In this document: one piece after another, positions 13,701 through 45,706 of the stretch
How positions within the stretch are numbered: the stretch's first letter is position 1
Layout of the letters: the number at the start of each line of letters is the position of its first letter
DNA from: Halomonas jincaotanensis
GTDB lineage: Bacteria; Pseudomonadota; Gammaproteobacteria; Pseudomonadales; Halomonadaceae
Length of the DNA stretch: 64,000 nucleotides
Direction: 5' to 3'
NCBI RefSeq assembly: GCF_018448785.1
Contig: NZ_JAHCLU010000002.1
Span: 124,001-188,000 of the forward strand
Position numbers and translations under genes: made by a program
Notes under the pieces: generated by a model
What the model was told of the DNA's origin: nothing
Database searches by the model: none
Seen by the model: the letters and a program-made list of their open reading frames with translations, nothing else

Positions 13701-14863
13701 CAGCGGATATCCCCCGGTCTGAAGCGTAGATTGAATTGACGGTAATCCCGTTGCACTGATGAGGGCAACTCGCGCAACTCACGAAACGGTGCAGCGGCTT
13801 CCACGGCCTGGACCACCGATCGGTCGAAGGCCCCATCACCGCTACCCCGGGTAATATTGGCAGCAAACAGCTCGCCGGAAGGCCCGAGACGCACCGATAC
13901 CTCAGCACTGGCACCCTCGGGTGAGTTAGGTGGAATAACCCAAGCCTGTTCCACCGCGCGGCGCACCAGCGTAATGAAGCTATTGGCCGCTTGCTGTGCC
14001 TGACGCGCCGCGGCCACGTCCTCGGACTCACCTTCGATGGCGCGATCGAGCCCCTGGCTTGCCGCCTCGGCTGCGCGGCGTGCTGCCTCCTCACGTCGAC
14101 GCTGCTCATCGGCCTGCTGTCGAGCTTGCTCTTGGCGGCGCTGCTCGGCTTCGGCCTGACGTTGCCGCTCAGCCTCGGCTTCGCGCTGTCGCTGCGCCTC
14201 GAGTTCCTGTTGACGCTCGCGTTCTGCCGCTTCCTCGCGCTGGCGTTGCGCTTCGGCTTCTTCCTGACGCTGTTGTTCGGCGGCCTGACGTTGCCGCTCT
14301 GCCTCAGCCTCCGCCTCGCGTGCTCGCTCTGCTGCCGCTTCTTCTTCGCGTCGTGCCTGTTCAGCAGCCTGACGCTCGGCTTCGGCTTCCTGGCGCTGTC
14401 GTTCCTCGGCCTGCTGTTCACGCAGACGTGCCAGCTCCTCGGCCTGCGCGGCACGGCGTTGAGCTTCCGCTTCGGCAGCACGGAGGGCTTCCTCGCGCTC
14501 ACGCGCCTCGACCTCTCGCTGCTGTCGAGCCTCTTCTGCCTGCTGCTGAGCCTCGGCATCTTCCGCCTGCGCGTCTTCCTCGGCCTCGCGTTCTGCTTCT
14601 TCGGCCTCGCGCTCTGCTTCCTCGGACTGACGCCGCTCCTCTTCCTCGCGAGCGAGGGCGCGTGAGCGCGCCTCTTCAGCGCGCTGGGCCTGATCGGTGG
14701 TGGTTTCGGTGCTGACGAGGGTCGCCTGAACGATGGAGCTGCTCGGTGATGCCTCTTCCTGTTGGGGAAAGCGCATCACGCTGAACAGCAAAATACCCAG
14801 GTGCAGGACGATGGCAAGGATGGTCGGCAGACCATAACCCACGCGCTGGTCGTGTCTGGCCAT
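13700..14863 (-). CDS. tolA: TolA, inner-membrane energy-coupling protein
   Basis: Connects TolQ/TolR in the inner membrane with TolB/Pal. The 387-residue protein has one N-terminal transmembrane helix (about residues 12-31), a very long helix of about 250 residues made of Ala, Glu, Arg and Gln (domain II, spanning the periplasm), and a C-terminal globular domain from about residue 295 that holds the TolB/colicin-binding fold. The monotonous composition of domain II leaves long open frames on the opposite strand that are not genes. Confidence 0.93.
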
Positions 14864-14872
14864 GTCGACTCC

Positions 14873-15313
14873 TCAACCCTCGCCGGGGGACGGTTCCGAG
14901 ATCAAGCCGACATCGGCCACCCCGGCGGTCTGCAGCGTGCTCATCAGGGTAATCACCTGACCATAGGAAACGTTGCGGTCTCCTCGGACCAGCACGCGCG
15001 TCGCCGGGTTGCGATCGAGCAGGACAACGACACGGTCGGCGATTTCGTCGAGACTCACTGCCGTCTCCTCACCGCCCAGCGAGATAAAATACTCCCCTTC
15101 ACGGTTCACCGATACGACGATAGGCTCGCTGTTTTCGGCCTCGTCGATCGGTTCAGAACTGGCCTGCGGCAAATCGACCTGAACGCCCTGGGTCAGCATG
15201 GGCGCGGTAATCATGAAGATCACCAGCAACACCAGCATGACGTCGATGAAGGGCACCACGTTGATTTCGCCCATGGGCTTGCGGGTGCCACGGCGATTGA
15301 AAGGTCCATGCAT
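14873..15313 (-). CDS. tolR: TolR, ExbD/TolR-family proton-channel subunit
   Basis: Inner-membrane component of the Tol motor. The 146-residue protein has a single transmembrane helix in the segment [20 protein letters not shown], with the proton-handling Asp in FIDVML, and a periplasmic dimerising domain. It is encoded between tolQ and tolA with gaps of about 10 bp on each side. Confidence 0.95.
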
Positions 15314-38846: not shown

Positions 38847-40802
38847 CTAGCGTGGCCTGAGACGATACCCTACGCCTGTCACGGTCTCGATTCGCGAGGC
38901 CTGGCTGCCTAGCTTGCCTCTCAGGCTATGCACCACGGCATCCACAACGTTGCTGCCGCCCTCATAGCGCGTGCCCCACACATTATGCAGTAATTCGCTG
39001 CGCGATACCGCCTTGCCCTGACGGGCGGCCAGATAACGTGTGACACCAAACTCCAGTGGGGTCAGCGCCACCCGATCTTCCTCCAGCACTAACTCCCGCG
39101 CTTCCACATCGAGCAGTTCCTGACCGTGATGAATACCGAGTTCCGCCGCGGCGATGTCTGACAACCATCCATCCACTGAAGCCGGCCCAAAGTCGAGCAC
39201 GACACTGTGATAAGTGACACCGTTGAGATCGACCTCTCGGTCGGATAACACTTCGAACCCCAGCCGTTCAGCCACCGAAGCATAGGCGGAAAGATCACAC
39301 ACCGTTAGATACACCCGCCGCAGCCTCGGCCGCAGAGTCATGTAGATACGCTTCAGATCTAGCCAGACAGCGGCTTGGACATCGCTGGGCGAGTCGCCTT
39401 CATCGACGCTCAACCAGCGTCGGCACAATAGGGCAATGGCTCCACGGGGCATCGGCCATTGCTCAAGATGCCGGAACCACTGGGCCGTTATCGGATCCTC
39501 GAGAAGCCATGCCGGCTCAGCGGTATCAGAGCGCAGTTTGCAACATACGCCAGCGACACGACCTTTCCGGCCGCGCACGACAGAGAAACTCTGCGGCTGA
39601 CGTCGCCACCATCGCATCAATGCCTCGGCTGCCTCACGGCTCTCGTGCGCATGGACAATAGCCGCTATGGCCTCACTGTCCTGTGGCTGTGCGTGCTCGA
39701 CCATCAATGATGGCGTGCCGCTGGGAAAGAAGGCTTCGCGCACTACCGGATTCTCGATCAGGTAGAGCATGTCGGCTGTGTAGCGCCACAGATCGACGCC
39801 AGCGGCGGCCTCGGCTTCGGTTATCAGCTGCCGCCAGGCAGCGCGCCGATACGCCAGATGGCGACTGGGGTCGCTGGCATGCAGGGAGTGAGCGATCGCA
39901 TCCCTTACGGCGTCGTGGATCACCAGGCCATCACTGGCAATTTCCACGAAGGGTAACTTACGCAGGCGCTCATAAGCATCTTGTGGGGCGATCTCAGGGA
40001 ACAGGGCCCGTAACAATGAAATGGTGACCCGCCGTGCGACGGCGGCCCCTTCCAATACACGGCGAGTGGCCACGTCACCGACATCAGCTAGGAACATCTG
40101 GGTTAGTTCTTCTAGGGCTTTCTGTATCGGGGCTTCTCGCAGCCATTGCCCGGACGGCTCTTCGCGGACCGCAGCGGCTGCAAGCGTCAGGGCCAGAGGA
40201 TGACCGTGAGTCGGGGGAATGATCGACGCCACCTGCTCGGCGTTCATTCCCATACTCGTCAAGAAATCTCTCGCTTCGGTCTCGCTCAATGGCGATATCG
40301 CCACGGATTGCAACAATCGTCCCCAGCCCGGCATATCAGCCCAGGTGTCGAGCGGCCGCTGGCGGCCAAACAGGAACAGCCGGACGTTCTCGGGCAACAT
40401 CGGCACGAAAACTCGGCACAACCAGGTATCGAGAAGACGCAGGACCTCGTAGGTATCCAAGGCCAGAACGGTCGCTGGCCCAAGGTCACCCAAGCGAGCC
40501 GTGAGAGCGCCGATGTCCTGATCCCCACCACCAATGGCATGGCTTAATGCCTTGAGAAAACCGGGTTCCGTCGGCTCCACATTGCGGCAGTCCAGACGAA
40601 CGACAGTGACACCTGCATCCCTGGCCTGTTTGGCAAATCTTTCAAGCAGCGCCGTCTTGCCGATGCCAGCGATGCCGTGGACATGCACCACACGCGCCCC
40701 GTCACGCCCAAGCGCGTCATTCAGGGCATCCAGTTCCGCAGTACGACCGACGAAGGCTTGATGCGCCTGAGTCGCCAACAAGTCTGACATCCGCTGCGGC
40801 AT
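38847..40802 (-). CDS. STAND-type ATPase with GNAT-like middle domain and C-terminal OmpR-type winged helix
   Basis: The 651-residue protein looks like a multidomain transcription regulator. Residues 1-250 form an NB-ARC/AAA-like ATPase: FVGR at 17-20, Walker A GIAGIGKT at 43-50, Walker B ATVLALDTYE around 110-119, and an arginine-bearing segment FLFGRQRP at 143-150. A winged-helix-like part follows at about 260-320. Residues about 367-540 resemble a GNAT acyltransferase fold (QPQDSEAIAAIVHAHE..., MTLRPRLRRVYLTV). Residues 565-651 are an OmpR/PhoB winged helix (LTPLEFGVTRYLAARQGKAV...VVDAVVHSLRGKL...TVTGVGYRL). No TPR/WD repeat sensor is seen. ATG at 40802 follows AGGAGG. Divergent from the DUF1326-DUF2182 operon, its probable target. 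Confidence 0.85.
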   Translation of the reverse strand: MPQRMSDLLATQAHQAFVGRTAELDALNDALGRDGARVVHVHGIAGIGKTALLERFAKQARDAGVTVVRLDCRNVEPTEPGFLKALSHAIGGGDQDIGALTARLGDLGPATVLALDTYEVLRLLDTWLCRVFVPMLPENVRLFLFGRQRPLDTWADMPGWGRLLQSVAISPLSETEARDFLTSMGMNAEQVASIIPPTHGHPLALTLAAAAVREEPSGQWLREAPIQKALEELTQMFLADVGDVATRRVLEGAAVARRVTISLLRALFPEIAPQDAYERLRKLPFVEIASDGLVIHDAVRDAIAHSLHASDPSRHLAYRRAAWRQLITEAEAAAGVDLWRYTADMLYLIENPVVREAFFPSGTPSLMVEHAQPQDSEAIAAIVHAHESREAAEALMRWWRRQPQSFSVVRGRKGRVAGVCCKLRSDTAEPAWLLEDPITAQWFRHLEQWPMPRGAIALLCRRWLSVDEGDSPSDVQAAVWLDLKRIYMTLRPRLRRVYLTVCDLSAYASVAERLGFEVLSDREVDLNGVTYHSVVLDFGPASVDGWLSDIAAAELGIHHGQELLDVEARELVLEEDRVALTPLEFGVTRYLAARQGKAVSRSELLHNVWGTRYEGGSNVVDAVVHSLRGKLGSQASRIETVTGVGYRLRPR

Positions 40803-40884
40803 GGCTCGCCCTCCTCTTGACTTCAGGTTAGTTGGCCAGGGGCAGGTGTGCAGAACGCGTTGGCCTTACGGGGAAGAAAGGTAA

Positions 40885-40917
40885 TTCTCATGATTTTCTC
40901 ATCGCCTCATCACATGT
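40885..40917. promoter_or_regulatory. Candidate operator: TTCTCAT direct repeats at 11 bp period
   Basis: TTCTCAT occurs at 40885-40891 and again at 40896-40902, exactly 11 bp apart, with the AT-rich spacer GATT. A related TCATCAC follows at 40907-40913, on the same 11 bp period. OmpR/PhoB-type winged helices bind such head-to-tail 7-mers with 4 bp spacers. The element lies in the 183 bp between the two divergent starts of the regulator and the DUF1326 gene. Confidence 0.5.
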
Positions 40918-40934
40918 CTTAACCGATTCGGCGC

Positions 40935-40940
40935 TATAAA
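40935..40940 (+). promoter_or_regulatory. Candidate -10 element of the DUF1326-DUF2182 operon
   Basis: TATAAA 46 bp before the DUF1326 ATG. There is no TTGACA-like -35 at 17 bp (ACATGT stands there), which fits an activator-dependent promoter with the direct repeats just upstream. An alternative AT-rich stretch is at 40954-40960. Confidence 0.35.
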
Positions 40941-40985
40941 AAATGCACAGCCAGAATAAAGTTTACAGACGAGAGGAGCAAAACC

Positions 40986-41591
40986 ATGAACACACAATGG
41001 AATATTAAAGGTGAATACCTGGAAAGCTGCAGCTGCCGTGGGGCTTGCCCCTGCGTGTATCTTGGTTCACCCACCGAGGGCGACTGTAGTGCACTGGTCG
41101 GTTGGCACATTAATGCAGGACGCTATGGCGACATCGGGCTCGATGAACTCAATGTTGCCGTTGCACTGAGTTCTCCCGGGGCGATGGCCGAGGGTAACTG
41201 GAAGGTCGTGTTGTATCTCGATCAGCGGGCCGATGAGCGCCAGCAGGAAGCGCTAGGGACAATATTCGGGGGTCAGGCAGGAGGTCATCCAGCCGTGCTT
41301 GCCTCACTTATCAGCGAGGTGCGCGGCGTAGAGCGGCTGCCCATCAGCTACGGGATCGAAGGAGGCCGGCGGCACCTCGCACTGGGTGAGACCGCAGAAG
41401 CCGATATTACGGCTCTTGAAGGCCTGGATGGCGGTGAGATCACTATCACCAACCACCCATTGGCGGTGGCGCCAGGTCAGACCTTGGTGGTGGCGAGCTC
41501 AAAGGCACTGCGACATCAGGCCCACGGCATTGATATTGATCTCAGCGAACGCACGGCATTCTACTCGCCGTTTGCCTATACGGGACCTTGA
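40986..41591 (+). CDS. DUF1326-family protein, Cys-rich N-terminus
   Basis: The 201-residue soluble protein belongs to DUF1326. Its opening holds the family Cys cluster YLESCSCRGACPCVYLG, with Cys15, Cys17, Cys21 and Cys23 in CxCxxxCxC spacing and another Cys in the EGDCSAL segment, which suggests metal or redox chemistry. The central DQRADERQQEALGTIFGGQA segment is also typical. No signal peptide. GAGAGGAG precedes the ATG. A 13 bp gap separates it from the DUF2182 membrane protein, a pair that recurs in other bacteria. No biochemical function is established for the family. Confidence 0.9.
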   Translation: MNTQWNIKGEYLESCSCRGACPCVYLGSPTEGDCSALVGWHINAGRYGDIGLDELNVAVALSSPGAMAEGNWKVVLYLDQRADERQQEALGTIFGGQAGGHPAVLASLISEVRGVERLPISYGIEGGRRHLALGETAEADITALEGLDGGEITITNHPLAVAPGQTLVVASSKALRHQAHGIDIDLSERTAFYSPFAYTGP

Positions 41592-41604
41592 GAGGAGCAT
41601 CGCC

Positions 41605-42369
41605 ATGGAGATGACCATGTCGCGGATTCACTCGCACGAGCGGGTACTGACCGCCACGGCTCTGGTTGCCCTGACGATGCTCGCCTGGTGGCATCTCATC
41701 ATGCAGGGATCAGCCGATGGCATGTCCATGAGCATGCCGGCGTCGAGCGACTGGGGCTTGCAGATGCTGGGGGTAAGCGTACTGATGTGGAGCGTGATGA
41801 TGATCGCCATGATGCTGCCGAGTGCCGGTCCGATGATCCTTACCTATACCCGGGTCTACCAGAAACGACGCGCGAATGGTTCAGCGCTGGTGCCGACCTG
41901 GCTATTCGTGGTGGGTTATCTCACTATCTGGGTGGGCTTCGCGATCTTCGCCGCCCTGGCACAGTGGAGCCTGCACCAGAGCACACTACTGAGTTCCGCG
42001 ATGGGCCACGTCGGTCCGTTACTGGGGGGCAGCCTGCTCATCATGGCGGGTGCCTTTCAGTTCAGTGGCCTCAAACAAGCCTGCCTTGGCAAGTGTCGTA
42101 CGCCGCTCAGTTTCTTGACCACCGAGTGGCGCGAAGGGCGAACTGGGGCATTTACCATGGGCTTAAGACACGGTGCCTTCTGCACTGGATGCTGTTGGGC
42201 GCTGATGCTGCTGATGTTCGTGGGTGGTGTCATGAGTCTCGTCTGGATGGTGGCTCTGGCGGTGTACCTCCTGACCGAAAAACTGCTGCCCCGTGCGGAT
42301 GATATCAGCCGTCTCGTTGGCGGCCTGCTGGTTCTGGCAGGAATCGCGTTACCGCTTGTCATGGCCTGA
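41605..42369 (+). CDS. DUF2182-family polytopic membrane protein, Met/Cys/His-rich
   Basis: The 254-residue integral membrane protein has about six to seven helices. Potential metal ligands cluster near or in the membrane: GMSMSMPASS in the first loop, MWSVMMIAMMLPSAGPM in helix 2, KQACLGKCRTPLSFL in a loop, and RHGAFCTGCCWALMLLMF in a late helix. These are family-conserved motifs of DUF2182, annotated as a predicted metal-binding membrane protein. The ATG at 41605 has AGAGGAG 6-8 nt upstream; a longer frame from 41386 overlaps the DUF1326 gene and is rejected. Same operon as DUF1326. A role in copper or other metal handling is inference. Confidence 0.9.
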   Translation: MEMTMSRIHSHERVLTATALVALTMLAWWHLIMQGSADGMSMSMPASSDWGLQMLGVSVLMWSVMMIAMMLPSAGPMILTYTRVYQKRRANGSALVPTWLFVVGYLTIWVGFAIFAALAQWSLHQSTLLSSAMGHVGPLLGGSLLIMAGAFQFSGLKQACLGKCRTPLSFLTTEWREGRTGAFTMGLRHGAFCTGCCWALMLLMFVGGVMSLVWMVALAVYLLTEKLLPRADDISRLVGGLLVLAGIALPLVMA

Positions 42370-42457
42370 CGAGGACGACGCGCCGTCTTGAATGATGAGA
42401 TAGCGCGACGTCCTTGCTATCGTGAGGAGGCAAGTAATTCTCTATCATTTTTATTTA

Positions 42458-43272
42458 TCAACGAAAGCATTTCCGATAGAACCTCTGCATTATTTGCTTC
42501 GTTGAATCGGGCGTCATTAAAAGCAACTTTCTGCGAAGCTTTAACATCGCTACTCTTGCCAAGTGTTGTTTACCGTGCTTGGCGACTGACTCCATGCCCG
42601 GACGACATACTTCACTCGTTTCCAGACAAAGAACAGGTTTTCCCGAACGCTCTGCCACCCTTTTCGCCACCGGCTCATCTTTTGTAATTAACAGCCGCGT
42701 CACCGAACATCTATAATGATCGGCTTGGCGGATGGCATATTCCCCAGCGCAATCCTTCTTTCTCATCGATGACGCAACGCTCATCATCGGATAGCCATGC
42801 CCTATGTTATTGTCTGCTAGCCAACGTAATGTTGGCTCACGATATTTCTCACTACGATGGGTCATGGCTGTATGCAGTTTATAGAATATCGACGAACTTG
42901 ATGCTATCCCTCTCGATATACACTGCCAGCCGGGTCACCTGACGCGATGTCTTGTCTTGAATTTCCTCAAGCGCAGCCCGCATGGAAACCCCTGTCATGA
43001 CGCCATCATCTACCAGCAATTTTTTTTGGCATCCCAGACGGTATGCAAAGCTCTCGCTCCTTTCCTCGTGCTACCCGAGATTATTCGAGCATCATTGAGG
43101 AGAGGAAGGAGTTCAGATCGGTACATTTGAAGTTAAGTAACAGGCTTATCATATACGCAGGAATCATTCCGCTTCGAGGAATACCGACCACCAAATCGTA
43201 GCCCTCTGCTTGAAGCTTATGAATATTATCCTGAATATCCTTAACCAAATCTTTATATTATTTAAACTACAT
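42458..43272 (-). pseudogene. Broken phosphoribosyltransferase-HAD fusion gene
   Basis: Reading from an ATG at 43272, preceded by AAGGA, the frame is M*FK*YKDLVKDIQDN, with two early stops, then HKLQAEGYDLVVGIPRSGMI and a further stop (43083-43081). In another frame, just past an A8 run (about 43020-43027), comes the PRPP-binding loop LLVDDGVMTGVSMRAALEEI, ending in VDIL-stop. A third frame gives the HAD C-terminal part LHTAMTHRSEKYREPTLRWL through SGKPVLCLETSEV to the stop at 42458. The order and motifs match PRTase-HAD proteins seen in surface-polysaccharide loci; the middle (end of PRTase and the HAD Asp motif) is deleted. The last 135 codons are still open but should not be taken as a gene. 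Confidence 0.75.
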
Positions 43273-43278
43273 AGCTAA

Positions 43279-43464
43279 TCCTTACCGGCATTTCTCAAAA
43301 GACTACTTATTGAACAGATTGATCAAGAAAAATTAAAAATACAGTCACTGAAGGACTAGATTTATCATCAAGGACTAACATGGGATAAGCCCGCTTCCAT
43401 CTTGGATATCGAATCTAAAAAGAGATTAGCACGCTTCAACTCATGGGCACAAACATTTCGATAG
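43279..43464 (+). pseudogene. Decayed reading frame with one internal stop, unknown family
   Basis: A single frame reads SLPAFLKRLLIEQIDQEKLK through IQSLKD, then TAG (43357-43359), then IYHQGLTWDKPASILDIESK and KRLARFNSWAQTFR before TAG at 43462. Both halves look like genuine helical protein sequence in the same frame and lie in AT-rich DNA. No start codon or ribosome site fits. It begins 7 bp from the start of the broken phosphoribosyltransferase gene on the other strand, so the original 5' part must have been lost. I cannot assign a family. Confidence 0.35.
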
Positions 43465-43859
43465 CATGACAGACAATGAACCCTCATCTTACAAGTGGCC
43501 ATTTTTCTTACGTCGTGATCTGGCGACAACTACGTTGACAGATAGGGAGCACGGCAACGACCACTTACGCAGCATATAGTGATCATTTTTTTTATATCTT
43601 TGATTAGCATGTTAATGCTTTTATTATTTTTTAGTTATTGATCACACTGAAACTTACTACATCTTCATTATGACGATAGCCAAGATTGAATGATCCTCAG
43701 CATCTTCATCGTCTCGCTCGAAGCACCAGAAAGGTGAATCACGTTGCTTCAGAACACTTTTGGGGATAGATATCGTTTTTCAGACGCTCCAGCACTGGCA
43801 TTGTCGGCGAGCCATGCGCGATCGGGTATCATCTAGGCGTCGTGAAACTTGGAGAGATC

Positions 43860-45131
43860 ATGCTCGCCGCCCTGCCCCTGCCGCTTTCTACCCCCGGCCG
43901 TAACCTGGTACGCCTAACCTTCGTACGCGGCATCACCTGGACCGGTTTTCTTGCCGGTATCATCATCGGTATCGAGGTGCTGGATTTTGCGCTCGATGTG
44001 ACCACCGTCATCGCGGTGATCGTGAGCATGGCCCTGATCAATGTCACTACCTGGTGGCGTCTCGGCCGCCCGCGTGCAGTCACCCACGGCGAGTATCTTG
44101 CCCACTTGATGGCCGATGTCGCTGGGCTGACCTTGCTGTTCTACTTTACGGGCGGCTCCACCAACCCGTTCATTACTTACTATCTCGTGCCGGTCACCAT
44201 CGCTGCTGCCACCCTGCCCTGGCGCCACGCCTGGACTGTCGCTGCAGCAGCGATGCTGGCCTACTCGGTGCTGATGTTTCATTATCAGCCGATTCCCCAG
44301 CTGAGCCATGGCCATACCAGTGGCAACCTTAATCTGCACGTGCTGGGTATGTGGCTGAATTTTGGCCTTTCTGCGGGACTGGTGACGTTCTTCATCTTCA
44401 AGATGGCCCACGCTCTGCGCGGCCGTGACCAGGCATTGTCACGCACCCGTGAGGCGGCACTACGTAACGAGCAGGTACTGGCCGTGGCCACCCAGGCCGC
44501 CGGCACGGCACACGAGCTGGGAACTCCGCTGTCGACCATGGCGGTGCTTCTCAGCGAGATGCGTGAGGAGGTCCGAGGCAATGCCCTTCTCGAGAAGGAT
44601 CTGGCGGTTCTGCGTGACCAAGTGGATACCTGCAAGTCGCGATTGCTCCATCTTGTGGAAAATGCCGACCGAAGGCGTATGGCTGAGCCCGAGATCCTCG
44701 ATGCCAACCTCTGGCTGGCCCGAGTGGTTCAACGCTGGCTGGTGCTGCGCCCCGACGTCAGCTACCGCCTTGAGGTCGCCGATCGCCGAGGTCGGCCGTG
44801 GCTGGCCGTGGATACTACTCTCGATCAGGCGCTGACCAACCTGCTCAACAATGCCGCCGATGCCAACTCGGACGATATCCTCATTCATCTCGACTGGACG
44901 GCGGAGGATGTGGTGATCGACATCCGTGACCATGGCCCCGGCGTAGCCATGTCCATCGCCGACCAGCTCGGTGAGACCTTCGTTTCCACCAAGAGCAAGG
45001 GCCTGGGTATGGGACTCTTCCTGACACATGCCACCATCAACCGTTTTGGTGGCGGCGTCAGACTGTACAATCACCCCGAAGGCGGAACCCTCACCGAGGT
45101 TACCCTGCCACGTAGTGAACCTGCTGTCTGA
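43860..45131 (+). CDS. regB: RegB/PrrB/RoxS-type redox sensor histidine kinase
   Basis: Membrane sensor kinase that responds to redox state and phosphorylates RegA. The 423-residue protein has about six transmembrane helices (to about residue 185) carrying the ubiquinone-site heptapeptide GGSTNPF (98-104), the H-box HELGTPLSTM with phospho-acceptor His218, the redox-active cysteine at 258 in LRDQVDTCKSRLL, and the ATPase domain (NLLNNAADA, DHGPGV, GLGMGLFL). ATG at 43860 is preferred over a GTG at 43842 because the ribosome site GGAGAG lies between them. Followed by regA after 35 bp. Confidence 0.95.
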   Translation: MLAALPLPLSTPGRNLVRLTFVRGITWTGFLAGIIIGIEVLDFALDVTTVIAVIVSMALINVTTWWRLGRPRAVTHGEYLAHLMADVAGLTLLFYFTGGSTNPFITYYLVPVTIAAATLPWRHAWTVAAAAMLAYSVLMFHYQPIPQLSHGHTSGNLNLHVLGMWLNFGLSAGLVTFFIFKMAHALRGRDQALSRTREAALRNEQVLAVATQAAGTAHELGTPLSTMAVLLSEMREEVRGNALLEKDLAVLRDQVDTCKSRLLHLVENADRRRMAEPEILDANLWLARVVQRWLVLRPDVSYRLEVADRRGRPWLAVDTTLDQALTNLLNNAADANSDDILIHLDWTAEDVVIDIRDHGPGVAMSIADQLGETFVSTKSKGLGMGLFLTHATINRFGGGVRLYNHPEGGTLTEVTLPRSEPAV

Positions 45132-45166
45132 CTGCGCATTGTTGTCAACATCCCTGCGAGGACGCC

Positions 45167-45706
45167 ATGCAAGAGAGCACACAACACCTGCTGATCATCG
45201 ACGATGATGAGATGTTCTGCCATGTACTACACCGTGCCATGAGCCGGCGGGGTTACGAAGTACTGGTGGCTCGCAATGCCGGCGAGGCGTTGACCCTGGC
45301 CAGACGCCACCTACCGGAAATAGCCACACTGGATCTCAAGCTCGAGAATGAATCTGGCCTCAAGCTGCTGCCCGAGTTGCTGGAACTGGTGCCGGCTTGC
45401 CGGGTGGTGGTCCTGACCGGTTATTCCAGTATTGCCACGGCGGTGGAAGCGATCAAGCTGGGCGCGGTGAACTATCTGTGCAAGCCGGCCGATGCCGACG
45501 AGATTCTAGCCGCCCTTCAGAAGCAACAAGGTGACCCTGACACCGAAGTGGCGGACAAGCCGCCGTCGATCAATCGCATCACCTGGGAGCACATCCAGAA
45601 GGTACTGCAGGAACACGACGGCAATATCTCGGCGACTGCCCGCGCATTGGGGATGCACCGACGCACTCTTCAGCGCAAGCTGCAAAAGCGGCCGGTGCGA
45701 CGCTAA
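45167..45706 (+). CDS. regA: RegA/PrrA/RoxR-type response regulator
   Basis: Partner of the RegB-like kinase. The 179-residue protein has a receiver domain (IIDDDEMFCHVL, phospho-acceptor Asp in ATLDLKLEN, VLTGYSSIATAVEAIKLGA, CKPADADE) and a C-terminal Fis-type helix-turn-helix with the highly conserved RegA end (ISATARALGMHRRTLQRKLQKR). Such regulators control respiration, carbon and nitrogen metabolism according to quinone/redox state. It ends 12 bp from the convergent bdhA. Confidence 0.95.
   Translation: MQESTQHLLIIDDDEMFCHVLHRAMSRRGYEVLVARNAGEALTLARRHLPEIATLDLKLENESGLKLLPELLELVPACRVVVLTGYSSIATAVEAIKLGAVNYLCKPADADEILAALQKQQGDPDTEVADKPPSINRITWEHIQKVLQEHDGNISATARALGMHRRTLQRKLQKRPVRR

Follow-up and report, generated by a model that had tools for sequence, protein, structure and literature searches.

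Here we describe a three-gene unit found in a window of 64,000 nucleotides from Halomonas jincaotanensis (RefSeq assembly GCF_018448785.1, contig NZ_JAHCLU010000002.1, positions 124,001 to 188,000 of the forward strand); all coordinates below refer to this window. A gene on the minus strand (38847..40802) encodes a STAND regulator of 651 residues and is divergent from a pair on the plus strand, composed of a DUF1326 gene (PF07040; 40986..41591; 201 residues) and, after a gap of 13 bases, a gene for DUF2182, that is, PpoB2 (PF09948; 41605..42369; a membrane protein of 254 residues). Both members of the pair were assigned by Pfam. Judged from genome comparisons, this unit is real, conserved and undescribed, and it is carried by bacteria of several genera. 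We lean towards reading it as a single-target signalling module, in which a dedicated, local, MalT-like STAND activator controls a copper-handling pair. The gene linkage, the operator, the promoter geometry and the domain architecture on which we build emerge from sequence analysis. A preliminary description of this DNA had given the coordinates and the order of the three genes, and these proved correct when the window was read again.

Full-length homologues of the regulator were sought in three named Marinobacter genomes, 201 genomes of the window's family and 398 genomes of the phylum. They were present, at 45-66% identity, in the 3 Marinobacter genomes, in 10 further genomes of the family and in 2 outside it. 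The neighbourhood of these homologues had been fixed beforehand as the comparison on which the proposed triplet would stand or fall, and it stood: DUF1326 and PpoB2 genes adjoin the regulator gene in all 16 loci (15 homologues plus the window), divergently in 15 of them and co-directionally in one (L137). Since every homologous locus keeps the set, the triad lies far beyond chance; since the flanking gene content differs between subgroups of loci, it is the three-gene set that forms the conserved unit. The regulator gene of locus L044 was suspected to be broken, a suspicion dropped because its frame is open over 649 codons. DUF1326 was found in 35 of the 201 family genomes (34 over the curated cut-off); these include every one of the 11 genomes with the regulator. 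The linkage fails in reverse, many DUF1326-PpoB2 pairs having no regulator beside them, one of which lies in the window's own genome. This second pair (L070:10072-11474; G000:C1, about 272.1-273.5 kb), only about 29% (DUF1326) and 42% (PpoB2) identical to that of the window, has neither a STAND regulator nor the box described below.

The gap between the regulator gene and DUF1326 contains a predicted operator (40884..40916, plus strand) of three tandem 11-bp units, ATTCTCATGAT-TTTCTCATCGC-CTCATCACATG. Two copies of (A)TTCTCAT form the arrangement TTCTCAT-N4-TTCTCAT with an 11-bp period, while the third copy is weaker and degenerate. Such a layout is that of the pho box recognised by PhoB, CTGTCAT-N4-CTGTCAT: winged helix-turn-helix (wHTH) domains of the OmpR/PhoB family bind direct repeats of 7 bp set 4 bp apart (PMC4832192). 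A predicted site of this format, with tandem direct repeats at the 11-bp period, is located upstream of DUF1326 in all of the triads (in L137, copies 2 and 3 make the best pair). When 14 loci were compared with dinucleotide-preserving shuffles, the observed repeat score was reached by none of 1000 shuffles in 13 loci and by 8 of 1000 in one. A -10-like element, GCTATA (40933..40938, plus strand), starts 49 bp past the start of repeat 1. In 14/14 loci, GCTATA or GCTATT begins at exactly this distance, and a GCTATA-like element keeps it in 15 of the 16 triads, with CCTATA in L136 and a diverged element in L137. No -35 element is recognisable (the best match is 1/6 in the window and 1-4 of 6 across loci). 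With the transcription start placed from the -10 element, the repeats would stand at about -58, -47 and -36. Across 14 loci, between 19 and 121 bp separate the repeats from the regulator start, and in L137 the box still precedes DUF1326 even though transcription of the regulator runs in its direction; thus, the box belongs to DUF1326.

Upstream of DUF1326, 16/16 triads have an intact CTCAY-N6-CTCAY core pair, as against 0/21 loci without the regulator. Locus L115 represents a natural deletion of the regulator, being syntenic with L075 (in the longest pieces, either flank is about 74-81% identical at the DNA level); both half-site cores of its box are broken and the -10 element is kept, a state compatible with an activator or a repressor. 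The DUF1326 of locus L128 shares 75% identity with the window's; there, regulator and box are absent, and GCTATA is kept. Downstream of this pair, the regulator-less one closest to the window's, we observed a Cupin_6/AraC regulator (L128:5853-6845), possibly a replacement. The exact box occurs a single time in the 4.13-Mb genome, and the regulator therefore looks dedicated to this operon. A near match with one mismatch (C23) was considered as a further regulon member and rejected, since it lies inside a coding sequence that, by eye, resembles a PemK-type toxin gene. The preliminary description had proposed that the regulator controls the DUF operon. Given the unit conserved at all loci and a specific binding site predicted upstream of the operon, direct control is very likely, and we hold with considerable assurance that the repeats would mediate it.

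The composition ascribed earlier to the regulator (Walker A and B, a GNAT-like middle and a C-terminal OmpR-type wHTH) agrees with Pfam, with motifs in the 16 homologues and with AlphaFold and Foldseek. The STAND NOD covers residues ~17-300 and is followed by a helical arm (~300-360), a GNAT-fold domain (~366-540) and an OmpR/PhoB-type wHTH (577-648). Pfam recognised AAA_16 at residues 17-93 (E 9.8e-13) and Trans_reg_C at 577-648 (E 2.7e-19, 69.4 bits against a curated cut-off of 26.2). Walker A GIAGIGKT/S (GxxGxGK[TS]), Walker B D116 (hhhhD), sensor-1 R147, the GxP motif HGHPLA (HG-x-P) and the MHD-like winged-helix H296 are kept in 16/16 sequences. The GNAT fold, to which Pfam gave no match, is supported by the order of strands and helices in the model and by a Foldseek match to dopamine N-acetyltransferase (8wme, E 4e-6); over the region 367-537, AlphaFold means of 10-residue blocks are 84-94 for the most part until about residue 470 and 63-84 thereafter. 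In 14/16 sequences, no acetyl-CoA loop [QR]xxGx[GA] was matched at beta-4/alpha-3, and the other two have unconserved RWLGEA or RWLGRA. Because the canonical loop is absent, we think it likelier that this domain senses than that it catalyses. The best Foldseek match of the regulator is MalT (8bob, E 1.9e-9, prob 1.00) at a low overall TM score (0.27). The modelled order and fold (NOD, arm, sensor, HTH) resemble those of MalT-like activators, with an overall pTM (predicted TM score) of 0.43. By homology with these proteins, a STAND switch, namely inducer-driven ADP/ATP exchange and multimerisation, may be assigned to the regulator.

As for the pair, the DUF1326 profile scored E 7.9e-53 (179.6 bits, curated cut-off 25). 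The CxCxxxCxC cluster noted earlier is indeed present as C15-x-C17-x3-C21-x-C23, and these four cysteines together with C34 are invariant among 15 aligned sequences; no N-terminal signal peptide is apparent by eye. The DUF2182 profile, which Pfam names PpoB2 and labels "copper chaperone", scored E 4e-68 (229.5 bits, curated cut-off 28.7), and C160xxxC164, C193xxC196C197 and M201 are kept in at least 35/36 copies. The AlphaFold models of DUF1326 are uneven (pLDDT, the predicted local distance difference test, is 80 in the best model and 47-64 in the other four). A weak Foldseek match of DUF1326 to acetoacetate decarboxylase (E 7e-5, TM 0.40, root-mean-square deviation ~15 A) was not used. A sequence search of the PDB returned only insignificant FliN/FliM matches for DUF1326 and nothing for PpoB2. 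The premise that neither DUF has a role holds for DUF1326, to which no function is assigned, and is wrong for DUF2182: the PpoB2 of Marinomonas mediterranea is described as the first member of COG5486 to be given a physiological role, the specific transfer of copper to the tyrosinase PpoB1 (PMC2855505). This was the only case found in full-text searches of a literature collection by the family names DUF1326 and DUF2182/PpoB2. The proposal of metal handling is supported by this homology. Considering the invariant Cys/Met sites and the known role of PpoB2, copper is the best guess for the pair, at even odds or slightly better.

We can now outline how the module might work; the direction of regulation, the metal and the signal are the parts of this scenario that we infer. 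At rest, the regulator would be an ADP-bound monomer. A signal perceived at the arm and the GNAT-fold sensor would open it, leading to the exchange of ADP for ATP and to multimerisation. The wHTH domains of the multimer would thereby come to occupy neighbouring copies of the TTCTCAT repeat, whose centres lie some 58, 47 and 36 bp upstream of the presumed start. From there, the multimer would recruit RNA polymerase to a promoter that has a -10 and no -35, switching on DUF1326-PpoB2. PpoB2 would act as a membrane Cys/Met copper-transfer protein and DUF1326 as its Cys-rich, probably cytosolic partner. The task of the pair would be to supply or route copper, or a thiophilic metal like it, to cuproenzymes outside the cytoplasm, or else to buffer that metal.

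Several observations weigh against this scenario. The copper role goes back to one characterised PpoB2, the client of which is a tyrosinase, and a search of the own genome detected no tyrosinase (PF00264), although the controls were silent too. No Cys/His/Met cluster pointing to direct sensing of copper or another metal is conserved in the 16 regulators, only C421 being kept (15/16). The five regulator models differ in confidence and, at the overall pTM given above, do not fix the domain arrangement. The association of the core pair with the regulator (Fisher p = 8e-11) comes from a statistic that ignores the kinship of loci. The same regulator-operator circuit might serve an operon devoted to another metal, to thiol/redox chemistry or to an enzyme not yet linked to it. 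Besides the single PpoB2 precedent and the tyrosinase result, such a reading draws on the absence of any copper gene or enzyme conserved beside the 16 triads and on DUF1326 having no assigned fold or function. The Pfam label of the membrane partner and its invariant Cys/Met sites speak for copper instead, and copper neighbours do occasionally occur elsewhere: on one mycobacterial plasmid, a DUF1326 gene adjoins copC and a gene for a metal-sensitive regulator. We regard the non-copper alternative as unlikely, though deserving of attention.

It might also be supposed that the regulator is a repressor, or that it governs both divergent promoters, rather than being a dedicated activator. In Marinobacter, the repeats lie just 19 bp from the regulator start codon, which makes autoregulation plausible. 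However, an operator immediately upstream of a -10 element without a -35 is an activator layout, its spacing is fixed to the DUF1326 -10 and not to the regulator start, the repeats remain at DUF1326 in the co-directional arrangement, and STAND proteins of the MalT type are activators. The repressor or dual reading is therefore improbable to us, and the regulator probably activates. That it merely travels with the pair through shared transfer, as strong linkage alone and gene relationships that do not follow host genus might suggest, is very improbable indeed, since the operator co-occurs with the regulator at a fixed promoter geometry, is absent from regulator-less loci and is damaged in the natural deletion L115.

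A tree places the window's regulator closer to copies from Marinobacter and from a different genus within the family than to the copies in its own genus, with joining branches that are not strongly supported; horizontal transfer of the regulator appears plausible on this topology. A mobile accessory module, as the preliminary description had it, finds no support: viral contigs yielded no homologue and plasmids no full regulator, the plasmid matches being only partial or remote proteins (best identity 26%), and a mobile-element origin was rejected on these grounds. Remote homologues (L013-L016, L138) share the STAND and GNAT parts and have exchanged DNA-binding domains: a LuxR-type domain stands at the C-terminus of L014 and L015, L013 and L016 have other HTH-like ends to which Pfam gave no match, and L138 has an N-terminal wHTH-like region, read by eye. 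No DUF1326 was found near these five loci within the stretch searched. In L139 / L159 (G764:C1:3330083), an alpha/beta-hydrolase-like protein carries a fused wHTH at its C-terminus, which shares 50% identity with the regulator's. There, TCTCAT repeats, again at an 11-bp period, point away from the hydrolase-wHTH gene and towards a small divergent open reading frame, which suggests the same DNA specificity under a different sensor.

The unit had also been placed between gene remnants. This holds only in part: on the right side, ~42.4-43.8 kb gave no recognised gene, and intact genes follow beyond on both sides. To the left of the regulator, a 62-residue open stretch had no Pfam match; further out come an intact DCC1-like gene and an intact gene that, from its translation, we take to be prfC. 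To the right, the AT-rich tract 42370-43840 (guanine-cytosine fraction 0.44-0.52) is probably decayed sequence, and a histidine kinase / Fis-type response regulator pair occupies 43842-45706. Elsewhere in the window, a strong AT skew (-0.39) at 14001-15000 can be put down to a TolA-like coiled-coil gene of the ordinary kind, located on the minus strand.

Overall, the unit would represent a type of STAND transcription activator controlling a probable copper-handling pair, of which DUF1326 has no assigned function and DUF2182/PpoB2 one studied member. Base-level predictions of its regulator, operator and promoter make it a direct handle on the inducing signal and hence on the role of the pair. 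A bacterial STAND protein this compact, whose sensor is one domain and whose DNA target is a simple tandem repeat, should also help in studies of how STAND oligomers assemble on DNA. Our literature search found no published STAND-GNAT transcription factors. It is tempting to go further and suppose that a GNAT-fold sensor past its usual acetyl-CoA use makes this STAND ATPase a dedicated switch for copper or cuproenzyme status, new both as a signalling architecture and as a copper-homeostasis circuit, on a branch of a STAND-GNAT family that swapped its DNA-binding domain several times; we find this possible but doubtful.

Among known systems, the PpoB1-PpoB2 operon of Marinomonas mediterranea likewise encodes a membrane protein of the PpoB2/COG5486 family (PMC2855505), but its partner is a tyrosinase, in place of which DUF1326 and a STAND regulator stand here. 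OmpR/PhoB response regulators share with our regulator the wHTH family and the target format, direct repeats of 7 bp separated by 4 bp (PMC4832192); unlike them, it has no receiver domain, so that oligomerisation would come from the STAND part, and its repeat reads TTCTCAT where that of PhoB reads CTGTCAT. A NOD combined with an OmpR-like wHTH is also found in the AfsR/SARP regulators. In AfsR-type proteins, the wHTH is N-terminal and accompanied by a BTAD domain and TPRs, whereas here it is C-terminal and Pfam matched neither BTAD nor TPR in the regulator. Published work on that group gives it SARP, NOD and TPR parts (PMC10936776). The closest parallel is MalT of E. coli, in which the inducer turns a closed ADP-bound monomer into an ATP-bound multimer that then binds repeated promoter boxes cooperatively (PMC4381067). 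Like MalT, its best structural match, and like other STAND activators, the regulator combines a NOD bearing Walker A/B, the sensor-1 Arg, GxP and the winged-helix His with an arm, a sensor and a C-terminal DNA-binding domain, and it may by analogy bind its repeated sites cooperatively. It differs from MalT in its sensor, which is one GNAT-fold domain where MalT has TPR repeats, in its C-terminal domain, an OmpR-type wHTH (Trans_reg_C) where MalT has a LuxR-type HTH, and in apparently having one target operon in the genome. By this analogy, the regulator would work like MalT without being a MalT.

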